A DNA stretch of 64,000 bases from Paenibacillus terricola (GTDB lineage Bacteria > Bacillota > Bacilli > Paenibacillales > Paenibacillaceae): NCBI RefSeq assembly GCF_014779765.1, contig NZ_JACXZA010000002.1, positions 310,001 through 374,000 on the forward strand. Direction: 5' to 3'. A model generated the notes under the pieces. It was not told where the DNA came from, searched no databases, and worked only from the letters and a program-made list of their open reading frames with translations. Below, piece by piece: positions 23,260 through 58,600 of the stretch. Position 1 is the stretch's first letter, and each line of letters begins with the position of its first letter. A program made the translations under genes and the position numbers.

Positions 23260-23531
23260 ACTTGCAAAAAAAAGCTCGAACAAAAGCTGTGCCCCACAGG
23301 GGTACGCGACCCCAAGCACGCAGTAACTTACCCGCTCTTACGTCAATCCCACGCCCATTCCGGGGTCCAGGGGACGGGAGTCCCATGGGGCCCTCCCTTG
23401 CAGGGAGGGTTTGGGTGGGTAGAACGCTTTAAGGTTAGATAGCTTGTACTCTAAAAGGTTTATATTCTTAGAGATCCATCTTAGGTAGAAATAAAATAAT
23501 AAGGGATAAAAGGGGCCTGGCCCATTTTTTT
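23260..23531 (+). repeat. Copy A of a dispersed intergenic hairpin element
   Basis: No gene lies between leuD and the first amidase. The stretch holds a hairpin-rich element: CCCCACAGGGG near 23293, a variable stem block, the 38-nt core at 23387-23424 (identical to copies B, C and D) with stem CCCTCCC-TTGCA-GGGAGGG and tail TTTGGGTGGGTAGAA, an AT-rich stretch, and a closing GGGC-CTG-GCCC hairpin plus T-run at 23513-23531. The closing hairpin could also terminate transcription. Confidence 0.75.
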
Positions 23532-23538
23532 CTTTATG

Positions 23539-23564
23539 CGCAACATTTTCCGATTGGGCACGTC
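23539..23564 (+). promoter_or_regulatory. ECF-sigma-type promoter for the first amidase
   Basis: CGCAAC (23539-23544), a 16-bp spacer and CGTC (23561-23564) resemble the extracytoplasmic-function promoters of B. subtilis (sigma-M type: AAC in the -35, CGTC in the -10). The same elements and spacing occur at the second amidase. A hairpin TTCGTCT-GTAAT-AGACGAA (23571-23589) starts the leader RNA. Confidence 0.5.
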
Positions 23565-23653
23565 TAATCTTTCGTCTGTAATAGACGAATTGCGCGTCTA
23601 CTCGACGAGATTCGTTGCGAGCAATCCTCCATATTCTTTAATAGAGGTGAAAG

Positions 23654-25195
23654 ATGAGAAAGCTAGTGGTCGTTATCATGTTGCTGTCGCTCTTCTTCTC
23701 GTTGTTCCCAGCGATCGGACAAGCAGCGTCCGTCACGCCGAAGCTCTACTTGAACGGCAAATTATTGGAATCGAAAGAGGATCCCCAAATTGTTGACAAG
23801 TCGACGCTTGTGCCTGTTAGGGTAGTTGCAGAAGGACTAGGTTATAACGTTGGATGGAGCCAATCCATCAAACAAATCAGTATCCAAGATGATTCAACCC
23901 AAATCACGTTAACAGTCGATAGCCGGTCGGCAAGTGTGAATGGCACCGTTGTGCAGCTTGATGCTGCAGCAATGATCATTAACAAAGTTACAATGGTACC
24001 GATTCGATTCGTTGCGGAGAGCCTCGGGCTTCAAGTGTACTACGATAAACCGACGAAGGCAGTTCATCTGTATAAACACGCGGATTCAACGCTTGATAGC
24101 GTCGTAACAGGCAGTACGACGGGCGCCGTCGGCAAAGGTACAGGGAGCAGTTCTGGCAGTGGGGGCTCCATAGGGTCTGATCCTTCTTCTGACGGATCAG
24201 GTAGCTCAAACGCAGAGTATTCGTCCGAAAGTTCGAAAAATAATAGTACGAGTCCGAATACAACAAAATTTCCAACCAATGCAGCGGGTTTGCTGAAAGC
24301 GGTTCAATTCGATGGTTCATCGAGTGTCTTAATTGATTATGAAGGAACGATTGCAGGTATCAAATCGTTTACGTTAACTTCGCCGGATCGTATTGTACTT
24401 GATCTGCCGAGCTCGGCATTCGCATCTAGTTTGACCCCAGGAGAAGTTGTCGTTGATTCACACCCAACACTTACCAAGATTCGTTATGCAGTTGGACCAG
24501 ATAGTTCAACAACTCTGCGTATTGTATTCGATCTGAAGGCAGCTTCGAGCTACACGGTATCGGAGCAGAGTGGACGTATTCAAGTTGATGTATTTGACCC
24601 TTCTGTCGTGCTGCCAGAGACGCTGCCATTGGATACTAGCACAGTTTCAGGGGACAAACTGTATAAAGTCGTCATAGACGCAGGGCATGGAGGCACTGAC
24701 CCGGGCACATCTTCCGCTAGTGGACTGTACGAGAAGACGTTCAACCTGAGCATTGTGCTCAAGATGAAAGAATTGCTCGACAAAGAAAAACGCATTCAGG
24801 TTACATACACGCGAACGGACGATACTTATCCGACCCGGAAGGAACGGGTTAATATGGCGAATAACATAAAAGCGGATGCTTTTGTATCCATTCATGCCAA
24901 CAGCTTTACATCACCTGCAACGAACGGTACGGAGACATATTACAACCGCAGCGATTCGAAGCCATTTGCGCAAATTATGCATAAGCATTTGGTTGAAGCA
25001 ACGGGATTAAAGGACAATGGCGTTCGTTTCGGTGATTTTCAAGTGATCCGAGAGACAACGATGCCTGCCATTTTGCTCGAAAATGGTTACATGTCGAATG
25101 AAAACGACGTGAAAGCTCTGTTCGATAATGCCGTCCAGAATCGTATTGCCGCTGCGATTGTTGCTGGTATTAAAGAGCAATTGAAGCTTCAGTAG
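23654..25195 (+). CDS. Secreted N-acetylmuramoyl-L-alanine amidase (first of two tandem paralogues)
   Basis: 513 residues. Signal peptide about 1-25 (MRKLVVVIMLLSLFFSLFP, cut near GQAA), a copper-amine-oxidase N-terminal-type domain (about 27-135), a Ser/Gly/Asn linker (about 140-215), an AMIN domain (about 217-320) and an Amidase_3 catalytic domain (about 335-510). Zinc and catalytic residues lie in VIDAGHGG, LYEKTFNL, SIHANSF and LLENGYMSN. It would cut the amide between MurNAc and the stem peptide, for cell separation or wall turnover; AMIN and the N-terminal domain localise it. Start: AGAGGTG before ATG. It is clearly a duplicate of the next gene, most diverged in the linker. Confidence 0.93.
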   Translation: MRKLVVVIMLLSLFFSLFPAIGQAASVTPKLYLNGKLLESKEDPQIVDKSTLVPVRVVAEGLGYNVGWSQSIKQISIQDDSTQITLTVDSRSASVNGTVVQLDAAAMIINKVTMVPIRFVAESLGLQVYYDKPTKAVHLYKHADSTLDSVVTGSTTGAVGKGTGSSSGSGGSIGSDPSSDGSGSSNAEYSSESSKNNSTSPNTTKFPTNAAGLLKAVQFDGSSSVLIDYEGTIAGIKSFTLTSPDRIVLDLPSSAFASSLTPGEVVVDSHPTLTKIRYAVGPDSSTTLRIVFDLKAASSYTVSEQSGRIQVDVFDPSVVLPETLPLDTSTVSGDKLYKVVIDAGHGGTDPGTSSASGLYEKTFNLSIVLKMKELLDKEKRIQVTYTRTDDTYPTRKERVNMANNIKADAFVSIHANSFTSPATNGTETYYNRSDSKPFAQIMHKHLVEATGLKDNGVRFGDFQVIRETTMPAILLENGYMSNENDVKALFDNAVQNRIAAAIVAGIKEQLKLQ

Positions 25196-25259
25196 GATGT
25201 CCAACATTACGTTTGTGTTCTGCAATTGTCTCTTCATCTGAAATTATCATTCCAATCAT

Positions 25260-25306
25260 AAGCGCTCTATGACTGTCGTAAGGCAGTCATAGAGCGCTTT
25301 TATTTT
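25260..25306 (+). terminator. Terminator after the first amidase
   Basis: AAGCGCTCTATGACTG and CAGTCATAGAGCGCTT form a 16-bp stem with an 8-nt loop, followed by TTATTTTC. Confidence 0.9.
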
Positions 25307-25315
25307 CTCCTCGGG

Positions 25316-25740
25316 TTTAGGTGGGGAGATAATAAAAAAGAGCTCCCAAGGGCGAAACCCTTGGAATCCTACAACTGGTAGAAGTCAACGGTGTCCATAG
25401 GGGCAATGCCCTGTACCGTCTTAGTACCATCAATGGGCGGTGACAGGTGGACATGTGCAAATGAAGTGTGCGGTCGGTTGATCGTACCTAGATACAGCGG
25501 GCAATTAGCTTTGCCGCGCAGGCGCGGCAAGTGCGGGCGCACGTTCCAAAGTAGTCAAAGCTGCGTCCTTGTGAGGAGTCCAGAGGTCACACGACCTTTG
25601 GGGCCCTCCCTTGCAGGGAGGGTTTGGGTGGGTAGAAATCTTGAATTTTTAGAAAGCTTGGTGTTTTTTGATCTCTAAGAAACTAGATATGTAGAAATTT
25701 AGGGGATAGAAGGGGCGAAGCCCCTCTTTTCCGCGAAAAA
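25316..25740 (+). repeat. Copy B of the dispersed intergenic hairpin element
   Basis: A 425-bp gene-free stretch between the amidases. It carries small hairpins CCAAGGG-CGAAA-CCCTTGG and GGGGCAATGCCC, then a 208-bp unit (25431-25638) homologous to copy C. That unit opens with CAATGGGCGGTGACAGGTGG, contains TGCCGCG-CAGG-CGCGGCA, and ends in the 38-nt core (25600-25637). The last 75 nt (25564-25638) are identical to 36206-36280. The element closes with AGGGGC-GAA-GCCCCT and CTTTT at 25711-25730. Confidence 0.8.
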
Positions 25741-25763
25741 CTTCGCAACATTTATCCTTTATA

Positions 25764-25789
25764 CGCAACTTTTTCCGATAGTGCGCGTC
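25764..25789 (+). promoter_or_regulatory. ECF-sigma-type promoter for the second amidase
   Basis: CGCAAC (25764-25769), a 16-bp spacer and CGTC (25786-25789). From this -10 through the hairpin at 25796-25814 and on for over 40 nt, the sequence matches the first amidase leader exactly, while the spacer has diverged. Confidence 0.5.
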
Positions 25790-25875
25790 TAATCTTTCGT
25801 CTGTAATAGACGAATTGCGCGTCTACTCGACGTAATTCGTTGCGGGCAATCCATATTCTGTTTTAGAGGTGAAAG

Positions 25876-27414
25876 ATGAGAAAGCTAGTTGTCGTCATCA
25901 TGTTGCTGTCGCTCTTCTTCTCGCTGTTCCCAGCGATCGGACAAGCAGCTTCCGTCACGCCGAAGCTCTACTTGAACGGCAAATTGTTGGAATCGCAAGA
26001 GGAACCCCGAATTGTTGGTCAATCGACGCTTGTGCCAGTAAGGATAGTTGCTGAAGGTTTAGGTTATGACGTTGGTTGGAAGCAGTCAGACAAACGAGTT
26101 GATATTTCAGATGCTTCTACGCTTATTACATTGATCGTAGACAGCCGCTCGGCCAATGTGAATGGCAACGTCGTACAATTGGATGCTGCCGCAACCATTA
26201 TTAACAAAGTCACAATGGTGCCAATTCGTTTCGTCGCAGAGAGTCTCGGGCTTCAAGTGTATTACGACAACCCGACCAAAGCGGTACATTTGTACAAGCC
26301 AGCCGATTCTTCCACTGGAAGCGGAAGTACGGGAAATGGCAGTAACGGCAACAACAATGGTAGTAATTCTGGCAGTGATGGCTCCTCAGGTTCGGAATCT
26401 TCTTCAGGAAATGGTGATTCCAATACAGGAAATTCGTCGGAAGGCTCGAATAACAACAATACGAACCCGAACACGTCTGTGCCATCCAATGTCCAAGGCT
26501 TCTTGAAAACGGTGCAGTTCGATGGTATTGCAAGCGTATTGATCGATTACGATGGAACCATTACACCGAATAAAGCGTTTACACTTACGGGTCCTGATCG
26601 AATCGTCATTGACTTGCCGAACTCGGCATTCGCATCGACGTTAGTTCCGGGACAGGTTGTAGTTGATTCACATCCATCGCTTACGAAGATCCGTTATGCT
26701 GTCGGACCAGATAGCCCAACGACGCTGCGCGTCGTGCTTGATCTGAAGGCTGCCTCGTCTTATAACGTATCGCAGCAGAATGGACGCATCCAAGTAGATG
26801 TATTCGACCCTGCGGTAGTACCACCCGAAACAACAACACCTACGACGCCTTCAACGCCTGACACAGGTTCGGGAGACAAAGTGTATAAGGTCGTTATCGA
26901 TGCCGGACACGGCGGTAAAGACCCAGGTGCGAGCACCGCAAGCGGGCTGCTCGAGAAGACATTTAACCTTAGCATTGTTCTGAAAGTGAAGGATCTGCTC
27001 GACAAGGAGAAACGCATTCAAGTGACATATACGCGTACGGGCGATACGTATCCAACCTTGCAGGATCGGGTAGATATTGCGAATAAACTGAAGGCGGATG
27101 CTTTTATCTCGGTTCATGCTAACAGCTTTACAGCTGCAACGAATGGAACGGAGACGTATTACAATCGGGCAGACTCGAAGCCGTTCGCACAAATTATGCA
27201 CAAGTATTTGGTGAAAGCAACAGGTCTCAAGGACAACGGTGTACGGTTCGGCGATTTCAAAGTAATCCGTGAAACGACGATGCCTGCTATTCTGCTCGAA
27301 TCCGGCTACTTGACTAATGCGACAGATTCTAAAGCGCTATTCGATAGTGCCGTTCAGTCACGAATTGCTGCAGCAATTGTTTCCGGTCTTAAGGAACAGT
27401 TGAAGCTTCAATAA
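25876..27414 (+). CDS. Secreted N-acetylmuramoyl-L-alanine amidase (second tandem paralogue)
   Basis: 512 residues with the same domain order as the preceding gene: signal peptide about 1-25, copper-amine-oxidase N-terminal-type domain, Gly/Ser/Asn linker (about 140-210), AMIN domain, Amidase_3 domain with VIDAGHGG, LLEKTFNL, SVHANSF and LLESGYLTN. Catalytic residues are intact. The first 40 residues and the catalytic domain are nearly the same as the neighbour; the linker differs in composition and a Pro/Thr-rich stretch sits before the catalytic domain. The same GAGGTGAAAG start context is kept. A shared ECF-type promoter suggests an envelope-stress role, by inference. Confidence 0.93.
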   Translation: MRKLVVVIMLLSLFFSLFPAIGQAASVTPKLYLNGKLLESQEEPRIVGQSTLVPVRIVAEGLGYDVGWKQSDKRVDISDASTLITLIVDSRSANVNGNVVQLDAAATIINKVTMVPIRFVAESLGLQVYYDNPTKAVHLYKPADSSTGSGSTGNGSNGNNNGSNSGSDGSSGSESSSGNGDSNTGNSSEGSNNNNTNPNTSVPSNVQGFLKTVQFDGIASVLIDYDGTITPNKAFTLTGPDRIVIDLPNSAFASTLVPGQVVVDSHPSLTKIRYAVGPDSPTTLRVVLDLKAASSYNVSQQNGRIQVDVFDPAVVPPETTTPTTPSTPDTGSGDKVYKVVIDAGHGGKDPGASTASGLLEKTFNLSIVLKVKDLLDKEKRIQVTYTRTGDTYPTLQDRVDIANKLKADAFISVHANSFTAATNGTETYYNRADSKPFAQIMHKYLVKATGLKDNGVRFGDFKVIRETTMPAILLESGYLTNATDSKALFDSAVQSRIAAAIVSGLKEQLKLQ

Positions 27415-27427
27415 AAATGAGGTGAGC

Positions 27428-27985
27428 ATGATGCGTCAACTACGTACAACGATCGGACTGCTGCTGCTCTCAGCGGCACTTGTAACTGCTGCCACCGGAT
27501 GCGGTACGAAGGATAAATCACCGCAAGCCAATGCCAATACGGATACGAACGTGTCGGCAGCTGGCGACCAGTCGGAGCAACCATCCTCATCGGAGAAAAC
27601 TAAGCAATCGATACATATTTATTATTCCGATCAGGATTTGACTACGCTTGTCGAGCTTAATCGTGAAATTGAATATGATTCGCCAGATCAGAAGATTGCG
27701 GCCGCTCTTTCGGCACTGCAAACGGACGGCAGCATCGATGCGTTGTCACTATGGAGCAAGGCACAGTTTCTATCGTCATCCGTGAAGGATGGGGCTGTCA
27801 CAATAGACGTTCATTTGCCGGAAGGCGCACGTCTTGGAGCACCAGGTGAGATGTTGGCTCTACAAGCGTTGAAACAGACGTTGTTCCAATTCGACGATGT
27901 CCAATCGATTGATGTGCTTGAAGACGGCGAAGCCGTTGACACGCTGATGGGACATGAAGAGCTGCCGCATCCATTCGTGAAGTAA
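27428..27985 (+). CDS. GerMN-domain lipoprotein
   Basis: About 185 residues. Basic MMRQLRT, a hydrophobic segment, and a lipobox-like ATGC give a predicted lipid-anchored cysteine near residue 24-27; the -3 position is Ala rather than Leu, so the box is imperfect. A Ser/Asn/Gln linker leads to a GerMN (spore-germination/sporulation) domain from IHIYYSDQDL to the end. It lies 13 bp after the second amidase stop, so it is probably co-transcribed. GerM-type proteins act in the sporulation septal channel and often pair with amidases. The ATGs at 27428 and 27431 are both possible, with GAGGTG ahead. Confidence 0.8.
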   Translation: MMRQLRTTIGLLLLSAALVTAATGCGTKDKSPQANANTDTNVSAAGDQSEQPSSSEKTKQSIHIYYSDQDLTTLVELNREIEYDSPDQKIAAALSALQTDGSIDALSLWSKAQFLSSSVKDGAVTIDVHLPEGARLGAPGEMLALQALKQTLFQFDDVQSIDVLEDGEAVDTLMGHEELPHPFVK

Positions 27986-28003
27986 TTCGATTGATCAAGG
28001 TGA

Positions 28004-28045
28004 AACGACTGTCGCCGTTCTCTGAACGGCGCAGTTCGTTTTTTG
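28004..28045 (+). terminator. Terminator after the amidase-GerMN unit
   Basis: AACGACTGTCGCCGTTC and GAACGGCGCAGTTCGTT form a long stem with a TCT loop and one internal mismatch, followed by TTTTTT. Confidence 0.9.
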
Positions 28046-28136
28046 TCGGAATAATTCAAGCCTAAGCATGAAGGTTTATACGTTCTTGGATTTCAAGTAG
28101 GAGCGACATGTTTACTATTCGAGGAGGCTATCGTAA

Positions 28137-30851
28137 ATGATTTATCATCCCAAATCCTATAAAGCAGCTGCATGGCTGCTAGCATTGTCGCTGACGGCTG
28201 GCGGTACTGCATCCGCAGCTGCGGTGCCATACGATACAACCTCAAGTGCAGCGGCTACAGGCGCAGCCGTAACAGCTGCTTCTGCAACGCCGTTCTCCGA
28301 CGTTGCACCTGCACACTGGGCAGAGAAGCATATCTCCAAGCTGGCAAGTCAAGGCATTATCGTCGGCAATAACGGTTTGTTCCGTCCATCAGACAGCGTG
28401 ACACGCCAAGAAGCAATCGTTATGGCGATTCGTTTTGCCGGATTGGAAGGCCAATTGAATCGTAAGGAAGCGGTTGTATTTCCAACCTCATTCCATGTTG
28501 ATAACTATTTCATTCCGTATGTTGTACTGGCATTCGAGAAGGGTCTTATCGATCAGAAGGAACAGTTCGCTATTGCAGATAAGGAAGGCAAGGACTGGGG
28601 CAGCGCGAAAGCTTCCAGGGAGTGGGTAACGAAGCTTACCGTGAAGGCGATTGGCAAGAATGCTGAGGCATTGGCACTGGGGAATCAGAAGATTCCGTTT
28701 GATGATGCTACTGCAGTAGGTGAAGGCTACGCCGGTTACATTAATGAAGCGGTATCGCTCAAGCTCATGAATGGGGTTGCGAACAATAAGTTCGATCCTG
28801 CGGGCGCTGTCACGCGTGCGATGATGGCGAAGCTGCTTAGCTTAGCGGAAGGCCAATATCCCGTCAACTATGCAGGGCAGACAGAAGGCATTCTGACATC
28901 GCTAAAGGATGGTAAGCTAGGTCTATATACCTCTGATGGCGAGAAGACGTATACAACGAGCGCAAGTACAGTATTTGCTCGGTTCGATCAAGAGCAATTG
29001 TCGAATGCAGCGAATATGATTTCATATGCACGCGTATCGGTAATTATAAAAGACGGTGCAGCACAATATGTTGAACTGCTAGGCACGGAACAACAAGTGG
29101 AGACGATCAACGGCACGTTTGATCGCATCATTCCATCGACGCACAAACTGTGGATTTGGGTGAATGACGAACCTGTTGAAATTCGTTACGACGATTCGCT
29201 ACAAGTGGTTGACGGACAAGGTAATGTATTGGATGTATCGGCACTGACGAAGGATGCAACCGTTAAGATTACGCGTGATAAATTCCGTTCATCCCCAATA
29301 GCGATTTCGGTTCAAGTTGCAAGCGCGCCGCAAAGTAAAACAGGCACTGGAACGGTGCAGTCCGTAGGTGCTTCTGCGATTACCATTAATTCGAATGGCG
29401 CTTCCGAGACATGGAACGTATCGCCCGACGCGCTTCTGCTGAGCGGCAACACGCTTCTTGATTCCCTGGCTGCCGTGAAAGCAGGCGACCAGATTTCGTA
29501 CGAGGTGAAGAACGATGCCATCGTTCGATTGGTCGTTGAAGTTACGAACTCCGCTAAGGTAGAGTCCGGTATTTTCTACAGTTCGGATAAGAAGACGATC
29601 ACTTATTTGAAAGACAAGAAATACATTACGAAGCCGATAACAGATGCGACGGTTATCAATATCGAGGGCATGCCTACAGCAACGCTCGAGGATCTGCAAG
29701 ACAGCGATCAGATTGAATTGACGATCAATGCATCGGATCAAATTACGAAGATTTCGGTATTGAGCCGTAAAGTTGAACTGGCTGTCGGCGTAGAAATTCG
29801 CAACTACGATGCTGACTACAAAGCATTGAACGTTGTCGATGGCAATGGCAAGCTGCGGACGCTTTATCTAAGAGCAAACAGCCAGATTGATATGAACGGA
29901 TTAGCATTTACGATCGATTCAGCAGTGTCCAGCGGGTTGTTGGCTAAAGGTCGCAAAATTACGATCAGCTATACAGGCGACACCATTGTAAAAATTCAGC
30001 TTGCATTTAAGTATACCGGCACTGTCGTTTCGGTTGATTCGACGAATCAGAAGCTGACGATTTCCATGAACGGCACATTGATGACCCTGCCGTTGCAGAC
30101 GCCGTATGTTGAACAATTTGGCAAGGCAAGCAGCGCTTTGTCCGATGTTCAATCGGGCGCAACGATCACAGCGACGATGAATCAAACACAGGACAAAGTC
30201 GGCGGAATTTATATTCACCGCTATCTGCAAATGAAGGTTGTGAGTGTAAATACTTCAACGAATCGAATTACGGTTCGCGAAGGAAATAACTCCGCTATCG
30301 AAATCAATGCCAGCAACGCGGAACTGGTGGACGAGAACGGGGTGAAAATCTCTCTCGGCAGCCTTTCGGCGGGCAACGTCGTCAACGTATCCTTCGTAGG
30401 CAGCACGCTATCTAATCTTCAGCGTGTTACCGTAAGCGTAGGTGCGGTCAAGAGTGTGGATGCTTCACAAGTAGCACTTGTTGATTACTCGGGACGCACC
30501 GTTAATGTACCTCTTGGCACTGGCTATTCCATTATTCGCAATGGCTCTTCGTCGGCATCTTATTCAGCAGTTCAGGCTGGCGACCGCGTTGAAGTGCGTA
30601 AGGATACGCAAGGCAAAGTGCAAGTGACGGTGCTCTCAAGCGTCGAGAAGAAGTTCTTCAAATATGATTCTGCAACAAACACGATTCAGACCAAACGAGC
30701 TAATATCAATGATACGAATTATAAGTTCTCGCTAGCAGGCGTTCCGTTGACGTCTGGCGGATCGGGTATTTCGCCGACATCGCTTAAAGATGACGACAGC
30801 CTTATCTTCTACTATTATGAGGATAAACTGATCGAAATCGAGAAACGTTAA
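28137..30851 (+). CDS. Large S-layer-homology (SLH) surface protein
   Basis: 904 residues. Signal peptide about 1-28 (LLALSLTAGGTASAAA), an Ala/Thr-rich spacer, then three SLH-type segments: a good one (TPFSDVAPAHWAEKHISKL, about 52-105), a degenerate one (about 118-180) and another (IPFDDATAVGEGYAGYINEA, about 187-243). SLH triplets bind pyruvylated wall polymer. The rest (about 245-904) is roughly eight beta-rich repeats of 65-80 residues, each starting GxVxSVD-like and ending in VxVS-like strands. No enzyme motif is seen. It could be an S-layer or surface fibre protein. Start: GGAGG 10 nt before ATG 28137. Confidence 0.88.
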   Translation: MIYHPKSYKAAAWLLALSLTAGGTASAAAVPYDTTSSAAATGAAVTAASATPFSDVAPAHWAEKHISKLASQGIIVGNNGLFRPSDSVTRQEAIVMAIRFAGLEGQLNRKEAVVFPTSFHVDNYFIPYVVLAFEKGLIDQKEQFAIADKEGKDWGSAKASREWVTKLTVKAIGKNAEALALGNQKIPFDDATAVGEGYAGYINEAVSLKLMNGVANNKFDPAGAVTRAMMAKLLSLAEGQYPVNYAGQTEGILTSLKDGKLGLYTSDGEKTYTTSASTVFARFDQEQLSNAANMISYARVSVIIKDGAAQYVELLGTEQQVETINGTFDRIIPSTHKLWIWVNDEPVEIRYDDSLQVVDGQGNVLDVSALTKDATVKITRDKFRSSPIAISVQVASAPQSKTGTGTVQSVGASAITINSNGASETWNVSPDALLLSGNTLLDSLAAVKAGDQISYEVKNDAIVRLVVEVTNSAKVESGIFYSSDKKTITYLKDKKYITKPITDATVINIEGMPTATLEDLQDSDQIELTINASDQITKISVLSRKVELAVGVEIRNYDADYKALNVVDGNGKLRTLYLRANSQIDMNGLAFTIDSAVSSGLLAKGRKITISYTGDTIVKIQLAFKYTGTVVSVDSTNQKLTISMNGTLMTLPLQTPYVEQFGKASSALSDVQSGATITATMNQTQDKVGGIYIHRYLQMKVVSVNTSTNRITVREGNNSAIEINASNAELVDENGVKISLGSLSAGNVVNVSFVGSTLSNLQRVTVSVGAVKSVDASQVALVDYSGRTVNVPLGTGYSIIRNGSSSASYSAVQAGDRVEVRKDTQGKVQVTVLSSVEKKFFKYDSATNTIQTKRANINDTNYKFSLAGVPLTSGGSGISPTSLKDDDSLIFYYYEDKLIEIEKR

Positions 30852-30866
30852 TTGTTCTAAACAGCA

Positions 30867-30914
30867 AGACCTCTGGAAGAAACCGATGTATCGGATTCTT
30901 CCAGAGGTCTTTTG
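30867..30914 (+). terminator. Terminator after the SLH gene
   Basis: AAGACCTCTGGAAGAA and TTCTTCCAGAGGTCTT form a 15-bp-plus stem with an inner CCGATGTATCGG hairpin, followed by TTTGGTTTT. Confidence 0.9.
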
Positions 30915-30993
30915 GTTTTACTGTTATGGTTGCATGACGTGACATTTTTCGCTACACTTTTGACTAATAGTGTGTTTTTGGGGAGAGAGGGCA

Positions 30994-35754: not shown

Positions 35755-36436
35755 AGATGGTTAATTCGTGGAACATAGCGTCTCTAGGGCTCTTTACAGC
35801 AGGCATGAGACTCCCAGCGCCTCTCTATTGGGAGGGTGGTTGGTAAAAAAATGATGTGGCTAATCGAATGTATCTCCAGTGGGCGGTGACAAGTGCAAAT
35901 AACGAACAATGTTTGCAGACGATAGACCGTATCTAATCACTCGTACAAAAGCTTTGCCGCTGGAAGCGGCAAGTACGGGCATAACATTCAACTTAACCAA
36001 GAGCTTAAGTCCTTCTGGAGCCCCTCCTCAAGGAGGGATGTGTGTAGAAAATGATGCAGCTAATCGAATGTCTCTACAATGGGCGGTGACAGGTGGACAC
36101 GTGCGATTGGAGTGTGCGGACGACTAACCGTATCTAGATACAGCGAACAGGAGCTTTGCCGCAAGGCGACAAGAGCGGGCGCACGTACCCCTATAACCAA
36201 GAAATCGTCCTTGTGAGGAGTCCAGAGGTCACACGACCTTTGGGGCCCTCCCTTGCAGGGAGGGTTTGGGTGGGTAGAAAATATGGTTTGAGAGTTTTAA
36301 AGGACTCAGTCCCTATGATTGTGTAGAAAAAGTTTTAAATAAAAGGTTCAAGGGACGAAGTCGCTTATCCACCTATAAAGGGTTCAAGGGACGAAGTCCC
36401 TTAACAATCACATTAACCGCGGTTAAGGGGGCCGGG
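35755..36436 (+). repeat. Copy C: tandem array of the dispersed hairpin element
   Basis: The 1.16-kb gap between dynA and the ABC genes holds no convincing protein gene. It has one partial and two full tandem units, marked by the junction words GCTAATCGAATGT (about 35860 and 36060) and GGGCGGTGACA (about 35882 and 36081). Unit 2 ends with CCCCTCCT-CA-AGGAGGG; unit 3 (36077-36280) ends with the 38-nt core (36242-36279). Then come GGGAC-GAA-GTCGC and AAGGGAC-GAA-GTCCCTT (36386-36402), the perfect palindrome TTAACCGCGGTTAA (36413-36426) and GGGGCCGGGCCCC. Confidence 0.8.
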
Positions 36437-45070: not shown

Positions 45071-45306
45071 TTGTAAAGACTTTATGCTTGCGAAGTAAGT
45101 TTTGCTTCGTTTTGATCCGACAGAGTATCGGTTCATAAAGCATCAGCAAAAACCAAGCGTATGCTTACGAAGCAAGTTTTTGCTTCATCAGGTTCGATGG
45201 GTATCGAACCCTTAAGCATCAGCAAAAACCAAGCGTATGCTTACGAAGCAAGTTTTTGCTTCATCAGGGTTCGATAGGTATCGAACCCTTAAGCATCAGC
45301 AAAAAC
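45071..45306 (+). repeat. Three tandem 76-77-bp structured repeats directly upstream of parE
   Basis: Unit 1 (45138-45213) and unit 2 (45214-45290) differ by one inserted G and one substitution. A diverged unit precedes them (about 45071-45137), and the first 16 nt of another follow (45291-45306). Each unit has AAGCAT...ATGCTT, GAAGCAA-GTTT-TTGCTTC and GGTTCGAT-GGGT-ATCGAACC stems. The last AGCAAAAAC (45298-45306) ends 4 nt before the parE AGGAGG and is exactly complementary to GTTTTTGCT inside units 1 and 2. Confidence 0.85.
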
Positions 45307-50131: not shown

Positions 50132-50172
50132 GAGGAATAGCAGGAATACGGACAGGAAGCGGGGTTAAGTCG

Positions 50173-50607: not shown

Positions 50608-50639
50608 CGCTTTAGAGCAGCGAGTCTATAGCCTAATAA

Positions 50640-50716: not shown

Positions 50717-50729
50717 ATTGCTAGCTATG

Positions 50730-51491: not shown

Positions 51492-52360
51492 TATTCGCCC
51501 GACTCCCAACGTCCGAGAATGCCGCATGGCAGGTTCATGCCGGATTTGGTAATGGGCAGACCGATTTCGCCGCAATGAATTTGACCGCCAAACTTGCGTC
51601 CAACCGTCATCTTCAGAATGTTGTGCAAGACAGTTGGCGAAATGCCAGTCGTGTAGGAGTTAATCAGGATGAAGAGCGGCTTGTCCGATAGAATCGACAT
51701 GCACAGCTCAACGAACGGATACAGGTTCTCCTCAAGCTTCCAAGTCTCGCCATTCGTACCGCGGCCATAAGAAGGCGGGTCCATAATAATGGCGTCATAT
51801 TGACGCTCACGGCGCTGCTCACGCTGTACGAATTTGAACACATCATCCGTAATATAACGAATTGGAGCATTCTGTAGACCGGACAGTTCGGCATTTTCTT
51901 TGCACCACTGCACCATGCCCTTGGCTGCGTCTACGTGACAAACTTCAGCGCCTGCGGCAGCAGCTGCAACCGTTGCTCCACCCGTATAACCGAACAGGTT
52001 CAACACACGAATCGGGCGATTCGCGCTCCGAATGCGTTCCATGATCCAGTCCCAGTTCACTGCTTGCTCAGGGAACAAGCCTGTATGCTTGAAGTTTGTC
52101 GGACGAATGTGGAAGGAGAGGGGGCCATAGGAGATCGTCCAGCGCTCTGGCAGCTTCGTGCGGAATTCCCATTGTCCGCCGCCAGAGTTGCTGCGATGGT
52201 AATGACCGTCTGATGTTTTCCACAAACCTGTCTCATCGACGATTGGCCAAATAATCTGTGGATCTGGGCGCCGAAGGGAGTATTGGCCCCAGCGTTCGAG
52301 CTTATCTCCATTTCCCGTATCAATAACTTCGTAATCTTTCCAATTGCTAGCGATATACAT
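51491..52360 (-). CDS. Class I SAM-dependent rRNA methyltransferase (RlmI/RlmK-like)
   Basis: 289 residues. The SAM-binding Rossmann motif is LNLFGYTGGATVAAAAAGA, and the catalytic motif is MDPPSYGRG, as in RlmI/RlmK-type rRNA methyltransferases. There is no N-terminal PUA domain. The preferred start ATG 52360 lies 14 nt inside the end of the response regulator gene; upstream in-frame codons run through that gene's coding sequence. It shares a transcript with the rluA-like gene, so both probably modify rRNA. Confidence 0.85.
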   Translation of the reverse strand: MYIASNWKDYEVIDTGNGDKLERWGQYSLRRPDPQIIWPIVDETGLWKTSDGHYHRSNSGGGQWEFRTKLPERWTISYGPLSFHIRPTNFKHTGLFPEQAVNWDWIMERIRSANRPIRVLNLFGYTGGATVAAAAAGAEVCHVDAAKGMVQWCKENAELSGLQNAPIRYITDDVFKFVQREQRRERQYDAIIMDPPSYGRGTNGETWKLEENLYPFVELCMSILSDKPLFILINSYTTGISPTVLHNILKMTVGRKFGGQIHCGEIGLPITKSGMNLPCGILGRWESGE

Positions 52361-53078
52361 TCTGTAAGTCAGTTCCTTCCTCGGTATTGAATTTATAGCC
52401 GACGCCACGCATCGTGACAATCCAGCGTGGATTCGCTGGATCAGGCTCAATCTTCTTGCGAAGATTGCTCATATGAACCATCAGCGTTCTCGTATCGCCG
52501 ATACTCTCGACGCCCCATACTGCTTCATAGAGCGTTGCTAGATGAAAGGCACGATTAGGCTGTTTGGCAAGCAGAGATAGCAGTTCAAACTCTTTGACAG
52601 ATAATGCAACGTATTGATTATGTACGCGAACCGTTCGAGCGGTCAGATCAATTACCAGACCATCGAAGATAAGCAGATTCCGATCATTCCCGCCATGGTG
52701 ATGCGTGTTAAGCGTTTGGCGACGCAGATGAGCCTTAATTCGAGCAACCAGCTGTCCTGGGCTGAAAGGCTTCGTAATATAGTCGTCACCGCCCGCTGCC
52801 AAACCTTTAATGACATCCTGATCATCGCTCTTCGCGCTTACGAACAAAATCGGCACATCGATAATTTGGCGGATTTGTTGACAAACATCGAGTCCGTTCA
52901 ATTGCTTGAGCAGCACGTCCAGCAGAATAAGATCAGGCTGAACCTCCACGATCATTCGTAGTGCATCCGTCCCATTATCTGCAGCATATACGCTGTATCC
53001 TTCGCGCTGGAGATAGAGCGTAATGAGCTCAATGATTTCGGGTTCGTCATCTACGACCAAAATTTTGCTCACATTCAT
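52347..53078 (-). CDS. OmpR/PhoB-family response regulator
   Basis: 243 residues: a receiver domain with acidic pocket DDE (10-12), phosphorylation site D54 in LILLDVLL and conserved Lys in ITKPF, then a C-terminal winged helix (about 140-235; LSVKEFELLSLLAKQPNRAF, then RGVGYKF). AAGGAGG lies 7 nt before ATG 53078. It is transcribed away from the sensor kinase gene and towards two RNA-modification genes, with which it overlaps. The kinase divergent from it is its likely partner. Confidence 0.93.
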   Translation of the reverse strand: MNVSKILVVDDEPEIIELITLYLQREGYSVYAADNGTDALRMIVEVQPDLILLDVLLKQLNGLDVCQQIRQIIDVPILFVSAKSDDQDVIKGLAAGGDDYITKPFSPGQLVARIKAHLRRQTLNTHHHGGNDRNLLIFDGLVIDLTARTVRVHNQYVALSVKEFELLSLLAKQPNRAFHLATLYEAVWGVESIGDTRTLMVHMSNLRKKIEPDPANPRWIVTMRGVGYKFNTEEGTDLQNVYR

Positions 53079-53159
53079 CTTCCATCCTCCTTGCTTTCTC
53101 GATTATTATAATCGAAGCGGCACAAATGAAGCAATGACATTAGGTCGGTATACCGCAAC

Positions 53160-55334
53160 ATGCGCGCATCCAATGCGCGTCAACGAGCCGGGGAGGGTAT
53201 GGTCATCCGCAAACCAGTTTGGATTTTCGTCATCATGTTAATTATTGCAGTAATTCTGAATGTAGGGTTATTCAATTCCTTTACGACAGGGGACAGCTCA
53301 CATCGTCCTAAAGCTGTGAATGGGGAACTGGACCTGAGCGGCTGGGACTTCCAGCATGAAGGGATCCTCAAGATGGATGGGACGTGGATGTTCTATGGGG
53401 GTCAGCTATTAGGTCCTAATACCGATTGGGGGGATAGTTCTTTAGGTGAAAGTTTCGTAAGTGTACCGTCATCCTGGAACAATTATGAACTTGAGCCTGC
53501 GGTAAGGAAAGGTCTCGGATATGCGACTTATCGACTTCTCATTCGAGTACCTGAAGAGGCTGGTACACTGGCTATACGGGTACCGAACATTATGACCGCC
53601 TATAAGCTATGGATTAATGGCGACCTGATAGCTGAAGCAGGCCAAGTAGACGAGCTTGCGGAGAACAACAAGGCGGAACAGTATCCGCGGGTCATATCTT
53701 TTGCATCTGATAACGGAATTGCTGACCTCGTCATCCAGGTGTCGAACTACAAACATCGCAAGGGCGGGATATGGACAAGCTTCTCGCTCGGAACGACGCA
53801 GGAGATTACTCGCAAAGAAATTCTAGCCGTTGCAGAGCAAATGCTCATAATCGGCAGTCTGTTCATTATCGGTACGTATCATATGGGCCTATATGCTTTT
53901 CGCAAAAGGGAACGGTTCACATTGTCCTTCGGCCTTCTCTGCTTGTGCGTAGCGTTCCGGATGGGCGTTACCGGCGAAACGATGATGTTCCAGCGGTTCC
54001 CGGGCGCTTCATGGGAATTGGGCATGCGAATAGAGTATATTGCATTCGCGCTATGTGGGGTCACAGGGTATACATACATTTACCGTATGTTCCCGCAGGA
54101 GGGTTCAAAGCGGTCGTACTGGATTTTTAATGCGGTCGGGTATACACTGTCCGTTGCTACTGCGGTTCTTCCCGTACTTGTTTATACGCGTGTATTGGTA
54201 ATTTATCAGCTCTATATCGTCATCGTATGTGCAACCTGTATGTATGTCGTAACGAGAGCCCGTATACGCAATCGAGAGGGAGCGACACTCGTTCTGGCTG
54301 GGATTACGTTCTTCATCTTCACCGTCATCAATGACATTTTGTTCTACAGCGAACAACATGTGTCGGTGCAGCTTGTTCCATTCGGCATCACTTTCTTTAT
54401 ACTTGTACAGTCGATTATCTTGTCTAACCGATTTACTAACGCGATGCAGAACGTTGAACTTGTATCGGACGAACTGCGCGAGCTTAATGCGAATCTGGAG
54501 CAGCGGGTCGAGCTTCGAACCAACGAGCTGAAGCAGTCGAACGAGTCGCTGGAGCATTCGAATATCGAGCTCGAGAAGCTGGAGAAATCAAGGCGGCATC
54601 TGCTGTCGAACATCTCGCATGATTTGCGGACGCCGATGACGCTTGTACAAGGGTATCTGGAAGCAATGCGTGATGGCTTGATAGAGGACAAAGACCAACA
54701 GCAGCGCCATCTTAATATGATGTTGGGCAAGCTGTCGCGTCTTAACAGTCTGATCGATGATTTATTCGAGCTGTCCAAGCTGGAAGCGGGGCAGGTTCGG
54801 TTCCATTACGTGAATGTCAGCGTAAGAGGGTGGCTGGAGTCGGTGCAGTTCTCATTTGAGACCGATGTGAATCGAGTGGGGGGCGCACTTCATTGCGTCT
54901 ATAATGGCATAACGCTTACTGCCAGCGAAATGGAACAAGGTTCATTAGGATCGGAGTCGCCTATTATCCGAATTGATATCGCTCGTATGGAACAGGTCAT
55001 GTCCAATCTGATCTATAACGCGCTCCGCTATCTGCCTGAGGCGGACAGCGATAAGGATCGCCGAATTACGATCGAAGCTGTGGAGGAGAGAGGAACGGTC
55101 GTTATTGAGGTGACCGATACCGGCTGCGGTATCGATCCGGAGGATTTGCCTTATATCTTCGACCGGTTCTATAAGAAGGACAAATCCCGCAATTCATCGG
55201 AAGGCGGAAGCGGGCTTGGATTGTCCATTGTGAAAGAGATTGTTCACCAGCACGGCGGATGGATCGAGGCGCGCAATACAATTGATCACGGCGCATCGTT
55301 CCTAATCCGCCTCCCATTAGCCATGCAGAAGTAG
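53160..55334 (+). CDS. Membrane sensor histidine kinase with 7TM-DISM-like sensor
   Basis: About 724 residues (start uncertain: ATG 53160 without a site, or ATG 53199 with GGAGG too close). One N-terminal membrane helix, then a jelly-roll-like outer domain (about 60-225) with Trp-rich carbohydrate-binding character (LSGWDFQHEG, LWINGDL, as in sugar-binding beta domains), seven membrane segments (about 230-410), a coiled coil (about 430-475), HisKA with NISHDLRTPMT (His near 487) and a HATPase with NLIYNALRYLP, DTGCGI and GGSGLGLSI. It probably senses an envelope or glycan cue and phosphorylates the divergent regulator. Confidence 0.9.
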   Translation: MRASNARQRAGEGMVIRKPVWIFVIMLIIAVILNVGLFNSFTTGDSSHRPKAVNGELDLSGWDFQHEGILKMDGTWMFYGGQLLGPNTDWGDSSLGESFVSVPSSWNNYELEPAVRKGLGYATYRLLIRVPEEAGTLAIRVPNIMTAYKLWINGDLIAEAGQVDELAENNKAEQYPRVISFASDNGIADLVIQVSNYKHRKGGIWTSFSLGTTQEITRKEILAVAEQMLIIGSLFIIGTYHMGLYAFRKRERFTLSFGLLCLCVAFRMGVTGETMMFQRFPGASWELGMRIEYIAFALCGVTGYTYIYRMFPQEGSKRSYWIFNAVGYTLSVATAVLPVLVYTRVLVIYQLYIVIVCATCMYVVTRARIRNREGATLVLAGITFFIFTVINDILFYSEQHVSVQLVPFGITFFILVQSIILSNRFTNAMQNVELVSDELRELNANLEQRVELRTNELKQSNESLEHSNIELEKLEKSRRHLLSNISHDLRTPMTLVQGYLEAMRDGLIEDKDQQQRHLNMMLGKLSRLNSLIDDLFELSKLEAGQVRFHYVNVSVRGWLESVQFSFETDVNRVGGALHCVYNGITLTASEMEQGSLGSESPIIRIDIARMEQVMSNLIYNALRYLPEADSDKDRRITIEAVEERGTVVIEVTDTGCGIDPEDLPYIFDRFYKKDKSRNSSEGGSGLGLSIVKEIVHQHGGWIEARNTIDHGASFLIRLPLAMQK

Positions 55335-55354
55335 GGAAGAGGAGAGAGGGTATT

Positions 55355-55993
55355 ATGGAGAGAAGAGTGTGGATTGGAGGCGGGGCGTTCGCAATATGTG
55401 CGCTGTTGTTCGGAGGTATTGTGTTGGCGCTGCCAGATGCAGGGCCATTAACGATCGACCGAGAGGCGGCAGAAGCCGTTCAATCGCTTGCGGGGCAGCA
55501 GGGGGAGAAGCTGTGGAAAGCAGTAACGAATCTTGGTTCTTCCGTCGTTATTGTCGCAGCAGCGTTGTTGTACGGCATATGGTTCGGCATTCACCGCCGT
55601 ACTTGGGCTGCCTTGTATATTCCGGCGGCTGGCGTTGTCGCCTATGTATGCAATCAGTTGCTCAAAAGCTGGGTAGACCGTCCTAGACCTGCAGGAGCGT
55701 GGGGGATTGAGGTTGATGGCTCGAGCTTTCCGAGCGGGAACGCAATGCTCGCAATGGCTGTTTACGGAACGATTACGGCATCCTTCGTGCTGTACGCCTT
55801 AGCCGGCCGGACTGCGAAGTGGATCGCATCGACTATCGGTATAATAGGCATTGCTTGTGTTGGCTTCAGCCGGCTATTTTTCGGCGTGCATTACTTGAGC
55901 GACATTGCGGCAGGGTATGCAGCAGGAGCTTTGGTTATGCTTATCGCGCTCCATATGGTAAATTACACATTGAATCGGAAACATAGCGTTTAG
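55355..55993 (+). CDS. PAP2-family membrane phosphatase with Asn in place of the motif-2 His
   Basis: 212 residues with about five or six membrane segments. PAP2 motifs: KSWVDRPRP (motif 1), SFPSGNAM (motif 2) and SRLFFGVHYLSDIAAG (motif 3). Motif 2 is normally PSGH; here the His is Asn. That His is the general acid in characterised enzymes, while the nucleophile His of motif 3 is kept. Several Firmicute PAP2 proteins have this PSGN form, so activity is not excluded. Likely substrate class: undecaprenyl pyrophosphate, PGP or other lipid phosphates. It starts 20 bp after the kinase gene and probably shares its transcript. Confidence 0.88.
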   Translation: MERRVWIGGGAFAICALLFGGIVLALPDAGPLTIDREAAEAVQSLAGQQGEKLWKAVTNLGSSVVIVAAALLYGIWFGIHRRTWAALYIPAAGVVAYVCNQLLKSWVDRPRPAGAWGIEVDGSSFPSGNAMLAMAVYGTITASFVLYALAGRTAKWIASTIGIIGIACVGFSRLFFGVHYLSDIAAGYAAGALVMLIALHMVNYTLNRKHSV

Positions 55994-56020
55994 AATAAGA
56001 ACGTTGTCGTCATGCGGCAG

Positions 56021-56350
56021 TCATTCCGACTGCCGGATGACATCAATCATTTTGTGGATCGATTGCTTGCGCTTGTCTTGATCCATATTGCTTAACAGCC
56101 GGAAAATCTCGACTGTATCAGAATTAATGCCGGATAAAGACTTATCCGGATCGCCGCCGATAATGTAATCCAATGAAACATCAAAATAAGATGACAGCTT
56201 GATTAACGTATCATATACTGGCTGTCGATTGTTGATTTCATAATGGCTGTATGCCGAGCGGGTTATCCCGATTTGGCGCGCCACCTCCTCTTGTGACAAA
56301 TTTTTTCGAAGCCTCAGTTCCCTCAAGCGGTCTCCCATCGTCATGGTCAT
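56021..56350 (-). CDS. XRE-family helix-turn-helix regulator
   Basis: 109 residues: an N-terminal HTH (RLRELRLRKNLSQEEVARQI, then GITRSAYSHYEINNRQP) and a short C-terminal helical part with MDQDKRKQSIHKMIDVI, probably for dimerisation. It resembles SinR- or phage-repressor-type small regulators. AAGGAG lies 7 nt before ATG 56350. Its promoter contains a perfect palindrome between -35 and -10, so it very probably represses itself. No antitoxin or toxin partner is adjacent. Confidence 0.9.
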   Translation of the reverse strand: MTMTMGDRLRELRLRKNLSQEEVARQIGITRSAYSHYEINNRQPVYDTLIKLSSYFDVSLDYIIGGDPDKSLSGINSDTVEIFRLLSNMDQDKRKQSIHKMIDVIRQSE

Positions 56351-56439
56351 GTCATTACTCCTTACGGTTATACTGCAAGTTTGGGCTTACGATTGCCTCA
56401 ACCAGAAGTAGTCGTTTTCTACTACATCCCTACCTCTTA

Positions 56440-56468
56440 ATTTATGATACAAATTGTATCATTGTCAA
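56440..56468 (-). promoter_or_regulatory. xre promoter with operator palindrome between -35 and -10
   Basis: On the minus strand: perfect -35 TTGACA (56468-56463), a 17-bp spacer and -10 ATAAAT (56445-56440). The spacer region is ATGATACAAATTGTATCAT read on the plus strand (56444-56462), a perfect palindrome with 9-bp arms. A second, weaker dyad GTAGT...ACTAC lies at 56408-56426. Confidence 0.65.
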
Positions 56469-56535
56469 GGATTAATGTAGCAACCTGTCGTTAACGTACA
56501 TATTATTTTTGACGCAAGGGAATACAAATTAACGC

Positions 56536-56564
56536 TTGAAAACGGTATAGAGGGACGTTACAAT
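56536..56564 (+). promoter_or_regulatory. araA promoter with cre-like site
   Basis: TTGAAA (56536-56541), a 17-bp spacer and TACAAT (56559-56564). TGAAAACGGTATAG (56537-56550) matches 12 of 14 positions of the CcpA cre consensus TGWAANCGNTNWCA and overlaps the -35, which suggests catabolite repression. Confidence 0.6.
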
Positions 56565-56575
56565 GAGGAGGTGGA

Positions 56576-56591
56576 ACTTGTTCGTACAAGT
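56576..56591. promoter_or_regulatory. AraR-like operator 1
   Basis: ACTTGTTCGTACAAGT matches the B. subtilis AraR box ATTTGTACGTACAAAT at 13 of 16 positions and is itself palindromic (ACTTGT...ACAAGT). It sits just after the predicted transcription start. Confidence 0.65.
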
Positions 56592-56674
56592 TGTTGAAGC
56601 GAAGATGCCCATTTCGTCTAGTGCCTTGGTCGTATCAATGAACCTTTGCGCGATATGGTTATGATTCACTTTAA

Positions 56675-56690
56675 ACATGTACATACAAGT
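56675..56690. promoter_or_regulatory. AraR-like operator 2
   Basis: ACATGTACATACAAGT matches the AraR box at 12 of 16 positions. It lies 99 bp from operator 1, about nine or ten helical turns, a spacing that could allow looping. Confidence 0.5.
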
Positions 56691-56739
56691 CGAGATACGT
56701 CAATTACAATTATTCGTCACTATAAGGAGGACTCGTTCC

Positions 56740-58233
56740 ATGCTTCAAACCAAACCTTATCAATTCTGGTTCGTGACTGGCAGCCAACACTTGTACGGTC
56801 CAGAAACGCTTCAGCAAGTAGATGCTCATTCCTTCCAAATGGTAGAAAGCTTCAACCAAGATGCTTCGATTCCATTCGAAATCGTATTCAAGCCGGTTGT
56901 TAAGACGCCAGAAGAGATTTTCCAAGTCTGTAAAGAAGCAACGGCTGACGACAACTGTGCGGGCATTATCACTTGGATGCACACATTCTCCCCTTCGAAA
57001 ATGTGGATCGCAGGTCTGAACGCACTCAAAAAGCCTTTGCTCCACCTGCACACGCAATTCAACCGTGACATTCCATGGGAAACGATCGACATGGACTTCA
57101 TGAACCTGAACCAATCGGCGCACGGCGACCGTGAGCATGGCTTCATCGGCGCTCGCATGGGCGTAGCTCGTAAAGTTGTCGTTGGCCACTGGGAAGAAGC
57201 AGGCGTGCGGGAGAAGCTCGCAGGCTGGCAGCGTACAGCTGTTGCTTTCTCGGAAGGCACTAACCTGAAGGTAGCACGCTTCGGCGATAACATGCGTCAA
57301 GTAGCGGTAACGGAAGGCGATAAAGTAGAAGCTCAAATCAAATTCGGCTGGTCGATCAACGGCTACGGCATCGGTGACCTCGTTGAGCGTGTGAACGCTG
57401 TAACGGAAGCGCAAGTTGACGCGCTGATGACCGAGTACCACGAAACTTATGAAATTACGGCTGAAACGCAAGCTAATGCAGCAGCAATGGATTCGATCCG
57501 TTACCAAGCTCGCATCGAGATCGCAATGAAATCGTTCCTCGAAGAGGGCGGCTTCTCGGCATTCACGACGACGTTCGAAGATCTGCACGGCATGAAGCAG
57601 CTTCCTGGTCTCGCTGTTCAACGTCTGATGGAGCAAGGCTACGGCTTCGCTGGCGAAGGCGACTGGAAGACAGCTGCTCTGACGCGCATGATGAAGATCA
57701 TCGCTGAGAACAAAGATACGTCGTTCATGGAAGATTACACGTACCACTTCGAGCCAGGCAACGAAATGATTCTCGGCGCTCACATGCTCGAGGTTTGCCC
57801 TACGATCTCGGCTACGAAGCCGCGCATCGAGGTTCACCCGCTCGGCATCGGCGGCAAAGAAGATCCAGCGCGCATTACGTTCGACGGCAAATCCGGTAAG
57901 GCAGTTAACGCATCGCTCATCGACATGGGCAACCGTTTCCGCCTGATCATCAGCGAAGTAGAAGCAGTACAACCTACGCATGATCTGCCGAACCTGCCGG
58001 TAGCACGCGTTCTGTGGAAGCCAGAGCCATCCCTTGCTGTATCGGCTGAGGCTTGGATCCATGCAGGCGGCGCTCACCACACGGTACTGTCGTACGCTGT
58101 TACGACGGAGCAGCTGCTTGACTGGGCTGAACTGACGAACGTTGAAGTTGTCGTTATCGGCAAAGATACGACGATTCAACAGTTCCGCAACGAGCTTCGT
58201 TGGAACGACCTGTACTACCGTCTTAACCGCTAA
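56740..58233 (+). CDS. araA: L-arabinose isomerase
   Basis: 497 residues; interconverts L-arabinose and L-ribulose, and needs Mn2+. It begins QFWFVTGSQHLYG and has WMHTFSPSKMWIAGL near residue 92 and the metal-site region HFEPGNEMILGAHMLEVCP near residue 336. Length matches the 495-500-residue family. ATG 56740 has AAGGAGG 9 nt upstream; an earlier in-frame ATG at 56677 overlaps operator 2. Strong codon bias indicates high expression. araB, araD and araR are not in the window, so araA is alone here. Confidence 0.96.
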   Translation: MLQTKPYQFWFVTGSQHLYGPETLQQVDAHSFQMVESFNQDASIPFEIVFKPVVKTPEEIFQVCKEATADDNCAGIITWMHTFSPSKMWIAGLNALKKPLLHLHTQFNRDIPWETIDMDFMNLNQSAHGDREHGFIGARMGVARKVVVGHWEEAGVREKLAGWQRTAVAFSEGTNLKVARFGDNMRQVAVTEGDKVEAQIKFGWSINGYGIGDLVERVNAVTEAQVDALMTEYHETYEITAETQANAAAMDSIRYQARIEIAMKSFLEEGGFSAFTTTFEDLHGMKQLPGLAVQRLMEQGYGFAGEGDWKTAALTRMMKIIAENKDTSFMEDYTYHFEPGNEMILGAHMLEVCPTISATKPRIEVHPLGIGGKEDPARITFDGKSGKAVNASLIDMGNRFRLIISEVEAVQPTHDLPNLPVARVLWKPEPSLAVSAEAWIHAGGAHHTVLSYAVTTEQLLDWAELTNVEVVVIGKDTTIQQFRNELRWNDLYYRLNR

Positions 58234-58240
58234 TCAAATA

Positions 58241-58282
58241 GAGGGCCGCTTCGTCCAAGACGAAGCGGCCCTTTATTTTTTT
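58241..58282 (+). terminator. Terminator after araA
   Basis: AGGGCCGCTTCGTC-CAA-GACGAAGCGGCCCT, a 14-bp perfect stem, followed by TTATTTTTTTC. Confidence 0.95.
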
Positions 58283-58600
58283 CTACCCACCCAAACTCTC
58301 AGGAGTTTCTACCCACCCAAACCCTCCCTGCAAGGGAGGGCCCCCGGGGTTTCCAACCCCGGGACCCCGGAGGACTGGTCTAGATACTGTGAGAGATGGG
58401 GTTGTTTCGGCTGTGACTAGATACGTTCGAGCGTTCGCATTCAGTTCCATGCTGCTGAGATAGTGTGTGCGGGTGCTCGCTTTCGTCCCTGCGGGACACG
58501 CTTAACGTTTGGCGTTCTAGCGTGGGGATCCCTGCGGGATCCAAAAACCGTTATTGAAGATTGTAGCGTCTGCGACGCTCTACTGCCAACGCTTAATAAG
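58283..58600 (-). repeat. Copy D of the dispersed intergenic hairpin element (reversed)
   Basis: The 38-nt core lies at 58344-58307 on the minus strand, identical to copies A-C. A second short copy of its tail (58300-58281) follows. The stem block next to it is CCCGGGG-TTGGAAA-CCCCGGG, in the position where copies B and C have another hairpin. Further along (58430-58600) are more small palindromes: GTCC-CTGC-GGGAC, GGATCC-CTGC-GGGATCC and AGCGTC-TGC-GACGCT. No gene was found in this 350-bp gap. Confidence 0.78.

Follow-up and report, generated by a model that had tools for sequence, protein, structure and literature searches.

REP/BIME elements with RAYT transposases are mosaic, intergenic, hairpin-bearing and clustered repeats. 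The 64,000 nt stretch of Paenibacillus terricola analysed here (contig NZ_JACXZA010000002.1, positions 310,001 to 374,000; hereafter the window) contains four copies of a repeat that is likewise mosaic, intergenic, hairpin-bearing and clustered, but no Y1 transposase was found in six genomes of the genus and the repeat has a third strand. A third strand is also described for TM-ECO/BoxC/PIT of Escherichia coli and other proteobacteria, a class II G/C-rich intrastrand triplex motif (PMC4666352). In vitro, the triplexes of such motifs are stable and PIT elements block DNA polymerase; the motifs accompany local genetic variability and, according to the same paper, purine-motif triplexes cannot form in RNA. 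Its ITxF rules for class II call for a pyrimidine arm, a purine arm complementary to it and a third arm giving G.G-C or A/T.A-T triads, and allow stems of 6-15, loops of 1-6 and at most one mismatch; the window cores fall within them. From sequence comparison we lean towards regarding the Paenibacillus element as a dispersed composite repeat that ends, on its near-invariant 3' side, in a class II intrastrand triplex motif folding as DNA.

The element resembles the E. coli repeat in its class II G/C-rich motif with a 3-nt second loop, its intergenic position, its tens of copies, the big differences among close relatives and the presence of some inverted pairs. It differs in that its stem measures 8-9 and its arms are CCCTCCC(T) or TCCCCCTT, BoxC being a 9-nt CCCTCNCCC pattern; by eye, the core does not match CCCTCNCCC N3-6 GGGNGAGGG N3 GGGNGAGGG. 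Here the motif belongs to a composite of 150-260 nt in which a covarying hairpin immediately precedes it, whereas none was seen in the one E. coli region examined, and it lies mostly in one direction relative to genes and replication, whereas no bias is reported for E. coli in the parts of PMC4666352 used here. A repeat of Methanomicrobiaceae (PMC8044849) also combines an intergenic G-rich tract with a C-rich tract, for which hairpin, antiparallel triplex or quadruplex are possible, but its C-rich tract lies 3' and ours 5', and the sections of that paper drawn on here describe no composite. The class II intrastrand triplex is a known kind of structure, and the Paenibacillus composite is a variant of it that differs from BoxC. 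No paper on this family was found in the open-access literature searched; the main text of PMC4666352 mentions neither Paenibacillus nor Firmicutes, and its database may list such motifs. An earlier note on the window had not recognised the family and had proposed a selected RNA or DNA structure; dispersed intergenic units with selected hairpins are borne out, but the family can be named by its triplex class, and the fold appears to be one of DNA rather than of a small RNA.

The third strand of the core motif

The core, CCCTCCCT-TGC-AGGGAGGG-TTT-GGGTGGGT, fits the class II (purine-motif; pyrimidine-purine-purine) intrastrand triplex perfectly as a motif of 8 triads: CCCTCCCT pairs with AGGGAGGG, and GGGTGGGT folded back over TTT gives eight valid triads. 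What had been taken for a tail, TTTGGGTGGGT, consists of spacer and third strand. Applying the rules of PMC4666352 to the window (G/C-rich class II motifs with stems of 8-15, loops of 1-6 and no more than one mismatch in the third strand) returned the four cores only, all with a stem of 8, loops of 3 and 3 and no mismatch; 20 mononucleotide shuffles averaged 0. A DNA folding prediction gave the hairpins only.

Across genera the third strand follows the purine arm, as judged from two sets of sequences whose combinations are not phylogenetically independent. In the loci up to L317, 79 of the 85 distinct records could be used (the remainder without an accepted 3-nt spacer or stem of 7), and 98.1% of their triads are valid in mirror register as against 58.5% in direct register without shift. 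When these records were collapsed to 25 combinations, mirror register gave 93.9%, compared with 78.5% for permuted tails, and none of 5000 permutations was as high. The loci fetched with the model R1 yielded 81 distinct units, with no mismatched triad in 72, one in 5 and three or more in 4; their 21 combinations gave 90.1% as against 70.5% permuted, again with 0/5000 as high.

The outer stem positions can discriminate, as mere repetition of the arm makes no prediction for positions 8 and 9. Counted from the spacer, positions 8 and 9 form valid triads in 18/18 and 11/11 distinct combinations and position 10 in 3/4; at positions 8-9, A stands opposite A/T 22 times and G opposite G 7 times. Among 22 combinations, the base adjoining the spacer is G/G in 12 and A/A in 6 (G/A cases, Fisher p 0.001). 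Seven records have arms whose last 7 and 8 bases are asymmetric, all of them AGGGAGGA, and there mirror register scores 8/8 or 7/8 and the best direct register 0.62-0.86, the mirror being clearly superior in six and about equal in one. In these comparisons the strands of the fold appear to have changed together in evolution, a hint that the triple helix matters in living cells. The intrastrand triplexes of E. coli are stable in the tube but left no cellular footprint (PMC4666352, in the parts used); a purine arm and third strand that change together over several genera supply natural compensatory variants for testing in-cell triplexes.

Composite units, their distribution and placement

The element is a non-coding interspersed composite in which one common 3' end is joined to alternative 5' modules (types I, II and III). 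From 5' to 3', a unit begins with hairpin P1, whose stem varies, and a C-rich stretch, which varies too; there follow hairpin a (GTCC-AGAGGTC...GACCTTT-GGGG and variants), the core hairpin and, after a spacer of 3 nt, the G-rich tail. The core is near-identical among copies whose 5' parts differ strongly. Within A1, variation of the core stem is confined to the terminal pair, a near-invariance due in part to the sequences having been collected with a core pattern.

For hairpin a, 39 cluster representatives less two removed by hand left 37 sequences, in which 49 cells changed on both sides, compared with 19.3 in shuffles. Seven pairs (the terminal pair of the core counted among them) show double changes, as against 4.0 in shuffles, of which 1/500 came as high as seven, and the pair types (13 vs 12.5) show no excess. 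P1 of type II was evaluated on 32 rows (30 distinct), paralogues from one genome; 94.8% of its cells are paired, and 11 double-change cells compare with 2.2 in shuffles. Its three double-change pairs were reached by 83/500 shuffles and its seven pair types (6.3 in shuffles) by 200/500. The earlier note's observation of neighbouring stems that vary yet stay paired is upheld.

The core is not confined to the window, a possibility raised earlier. The P. terricola genome holds 75 matches to the 34-mer with at most three mismatches, two of which are second-strand readings of inverted-repeat copies; the reversed pattern gave none and a 33-mer gave 80. Short loci yielded a set of 76 cores (both second-strand readings included) and longer loci one of 78, or 76 after removal of both. 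R1, which has 58 positions including the tail, detected the family in 91 of 148 sampled Paenibacillaceae genomes and 12 of 19 genera; 37 candidates were scored per genome, and per-genome copy counts are lower bounds. In genus g7 a single match is the rule among the listed genomes, but at least two of them, G011 and G041, lack any. Scanning with a pattern retrieved 67 stretches, 64 of them labelled Paenibacillus; viral contigs gave no match to the pattern. Two Bacteroidetes contigs of metagenome-assembled genomes (L170, L205) carry CCCTCCCTCACAGGGAGGGTTTGGGTGGGT without hairpin a and were set aside; they may represent a triplex motif of another lineage or chance. Other genera show TCCCCCTT/AAGGGGGA arms with the tail AGGGGGAT or AGGGGGTT, and also 9-bp stems AAGGGAGGG with the tail GGGTGGGTT. 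Loop variants depend on the genome, TTGCA being prevalent in G000 and TAGCA frequent in G001.

Gene calls with a codon model placed the 76 copies at 54 sites. The unit shares its direction with the upstream gene at 49 of these and with the downstream gene at 31. Not one site falls in a divergent gap, whereas divergent gaps make up 51 of the 253 that measure at least 150 nt in these 45 stretches (p 9e-6), a comparison in which the stretches were picked around elements and a few upstream distances above 1 kb may conceal missed genes. In three other genomes (G151, G035 and G034; 37 sites, covering all matches of the first two and 8/11 of the third) both neighbouring genes run in the unit's direction at 26 sites, both oppose it at 10, and one gap is divergent. 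A strict search found upstream terminators at only 8/76 copies, so the impression that many copies follow terminators was discounted.

The unit points in the direction of positive GC skew at 47/54 sites (p 2e-8 against one half) and, in convergent gaps, at 15/18 (p 0.008). Positive GC skew marks the leading strand, so the foldable strand would mostly be the lagging-strand template.

Competing explanations and a possible mechanism

Much of this placement would also suit an element that works as RNA, be it a 3' untranslated region, a leader or a small RNA, with stems that are RNA stems: the hairpins covary, the unit shares the direction of its upstream gene and avoids divergent gaps, and in seven genus-g7 genomes (loci L290, L292, L294-L297 and L299) it lies directly before an argH-like gene. 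We nevertheless consider this unlikely. The downstream gene is on the opposite strand at 23/54 sites, and no Rfam family matched the window at gathering score. Weak matches at chance level touched the element in just two places, whalefall-1 (18.9 bits against a gathering score of 37) on the decayed unit before copy C and mir-320 (E 0.56) on the L195 core. In a search of six element loci one family passed gathering, the cyclic di-AMP (c-di-AMP) riboswitch, which lies away from the element. Purine-motif third strands are reported not to form in RNA (PMC4666352, in the parts used), which, with a third strand that tracks the purine arm, argues for selection on the DNA fold and not on RNA.

Dozens of copies, arrays, genome-specific loop variants and presence or absence between species could also come from a REP-like or MITE-like (miniature inverted-repeat transposable element) repeat mobilised in trans, its hairpin serving as the site of a transposase. 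That origin is improbable in our view. A RAYT/IS200 partner was rejected, Y1_Tnp (PF01797) being found in 42 of the 148 family-wide genomes and in none of the six of the genus, G000 and G001 included (the search was for this transposase type alone). One 3' end serves three 5' modules, and no common inverted ends were seen among the modules by eye. The relatives are too distant for exact empty sites; the window's sites are occupied in Paenibacillus cellulosilyticus as well.

The G-rich sequence also invites the proposal that a G-quadruplex (GGGAGGGTTTGGGTGGG) is the selected structure. Its pattern fits all four window cores, and the archaeal repeat toggles between triplex and quadruplex with potassium (PMC8044849, in the parts used), but 29 of the 81 R1-fetched units have a G5 arm and hence no four G3 runs, and 25 of these keep their triads with at most one mismatch, the other four being the units with three or more. 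The C-rich arm is unnecessary for a quadruplex, and the data suggest that quadruplex-incompetent forms are as well conserved as competent ones. The quadruplex was rejected as the selected form for G5-arm units, and overall we hold it to be very improbable. Scarcely more credible is a core that serves as DNA-binding site of a nucleoid or replication protein, with an incidental triplex pattern; a near-identical core beside strongly diverging 5' parts speaks for such a site, but the letters differ between genera and the triads are retained.

Several points weigh against a selected DNA triplex itself. With a shift of 0-2 bases permitted in each unit, a direct repeat of the purine arm scores 0.901 over the 21 combinations, the same as the mirror though over fewer positions, because the inner 7 bases (GGGAGGG, AGGGGGA) are mirror-symmetric; the argument for the triplex therefore depends on what is seen at positions 8-9 and in a few asymmetric arms, all of a single type. 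The search patterns and R1 contain tail columns, which favours canonical tails, and even so the third strand is lost or misfits in 4/81 units. The triplex leaves the hairpins before the core unexplained. Regarding orientation, genes likewise follow positive skew (522/655; site-gene difference p 0.24) and 27/37 sites in the three other genomes have the leading-strand direction; as genes share the bias and only few sites separate the two, it was rejected as proof of a role in replication. Finally, the E. coli triplex left no footprint in cells and showed no strand bias, and no in vivo effect, promoter or terminator activity is reported in the parts of PMC4666352 used here.

With these points in mind, a wider reading of the triplex element is tentative and to us rather doubtful: three-strand covariation over several genera would be evolutionary evidence of a selected in-cell purine-motif triplex, and the composite a polar, replication-associated element with its foldable strand on the lagging-strand template.

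In the narrower explanation towards which we lean, that of a triplex motif folding as DNA, the C-rich arm would pair with the G-rich arm, and the tail, reaching back over the 3-nt spacer, would act as a reverse-Hoogsteen third strand (G.G-C, A.A-T, T.A-T). Such a fold could arise on single-stranded DNA, for instance the lagging-strand template in replication or the strand displaced in transcription, and might stall polymerases locally. Slippage and template switching after a stall may then produce tail duplications, head-to-tail arrays and inverted-repeat conversions, and copies would be retained behind genes, in gaps where their presence costs little.

Window copies, turnover and neighbouring genes

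The 34-nt core occurs exactly at 23391-23424(+), 25604-25637(+), 36246-36279(+) and 58307-58340(-), and in none of 100 shuffles; preceded by GGGG it makes up the 38-nt block first reported as identical in four places. Other early observations hold too: copies B and C share 75 identical nt by a count by eye, their homology starting at 25431 and 36077, each of the four copies sits between called genes, and the seven neighbouring window proteins tested include no transposase. The small hairpins are likewise present, with GTCCC-GCA-GGGAC inside P1 of copy D, GGATCCC-GCA-GGGATCC at 58526-58542(-) and two more listed with the other features in Table 1.

Table 1. Positions in the window of the four element copies, their parts and nearby hairpins
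Feature	Position	Strand	Remark
Copy A, whole unit, type II 5' module	23274..23424	+	elsewhere units of this kind form head-to-tail arrays with ~155-nt spacing
Copy A, 5' hairpin region (P1, type II)	23284..23313	+	covariation counted for type II
Copy A, class II triplex motif	23391..23420	+	motif scan; 8 triads, 0 mismatches
Copy B, whole unit, type I 5' module	25431..25637	+	
Copy B, 5' hairpin (P1, type I)	25507..25535	+	
Copy B, hairpin a and triplex	25575..25633	+	model R1, E 6e-19; model alignment includes close paralogues
Copy B, triplex motif	25604..25633	+	motif scan
Hairpin AGGGGC-GAA-GCCCCT downstream of copy B	25711..25725	+	
Decayed type I unit immediately before copy C	35877..36050	+	limits by eye; missed by R1
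Decayed unit upstream of copy C, P1 and core relic	35950..35977 (P1); near 36020..36037 (core relic)	+	
Copy C, whole unit, type I 5' module	36077..36279	+	
Copy C, hairpin a and triplex	36217..36275	+	model R1, E 6e-19
Copy C, triplex motif	36246..36275	+	motif scan
Hairpin AGGGAC-GAA-GTCCCT downstream of copy C	36387..36401	+	
Copy D, type III 5' modules and core	58307..58542	-	has an orthologue in P. cellulosilyticus
Copy D, 5' hairpin (P1, type III)	58478..58503	-	
Copy D, triplex motif	58311..58340	-	motif scan
Copy D, partial duplication of third-strand tail	58281..58306	-	absent from P. cellulosilyticus orthologue

In P. cellulosilyticus (73-88% identity over the main aligned pieces) the element is found at the places of A/B, C and D. 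At place C that species has a type II unit and the window a type I unit; the two elements and two amidase genes of the window at place A/B correspond to one of each in that species. Reading place A/B in P. kobensis, P. xylaniclasticus and P. curdlanolyticus revealed no element there. In P. kobensis and P. xylaniclasticus place D lacks both the element and the neighbouring gene, leaving gaps of 113 and 108 nt.

Within the P. terricola genome the tail is duplicated in 12/76 core matches, and head-to-tail arrays comprise six units 155 nt apart and four units 151-154 nt apart. Two copies are now inverted repeats with arms of 28 and 22 bp and a 3-nt loop (L003:1481-1539, L055:1270-1316), as template switching would leave. 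The genome also has three close inverted pairs with outward tails 550-671 nt apart, whereas one E. coli pair points inward within ~20 nt.

Some neighbouring genes deserve mention. The genes at 23654-25195 and 25876-27414 are a tandem duplicate of an N-acetylmuramoyl-L-alanine amidase gene (83% identity over 300 nt around the start), with the promoter region duplicated too and elements of different type (II and I) at the two copies. The gene absent together with the element at place D in two related species is chemotaxis-receptor-like (58636-59931). In genus g7 the unit before the argH-like gene (Pfam-checked in L296) is the only copy found per genome, and its tail enters the ribosome-binding region; these copies are possibly a co-opted leader. 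A further repeat at 45115-45306, unlike the element, consists of three tandem copies with a period of ~76 nt.

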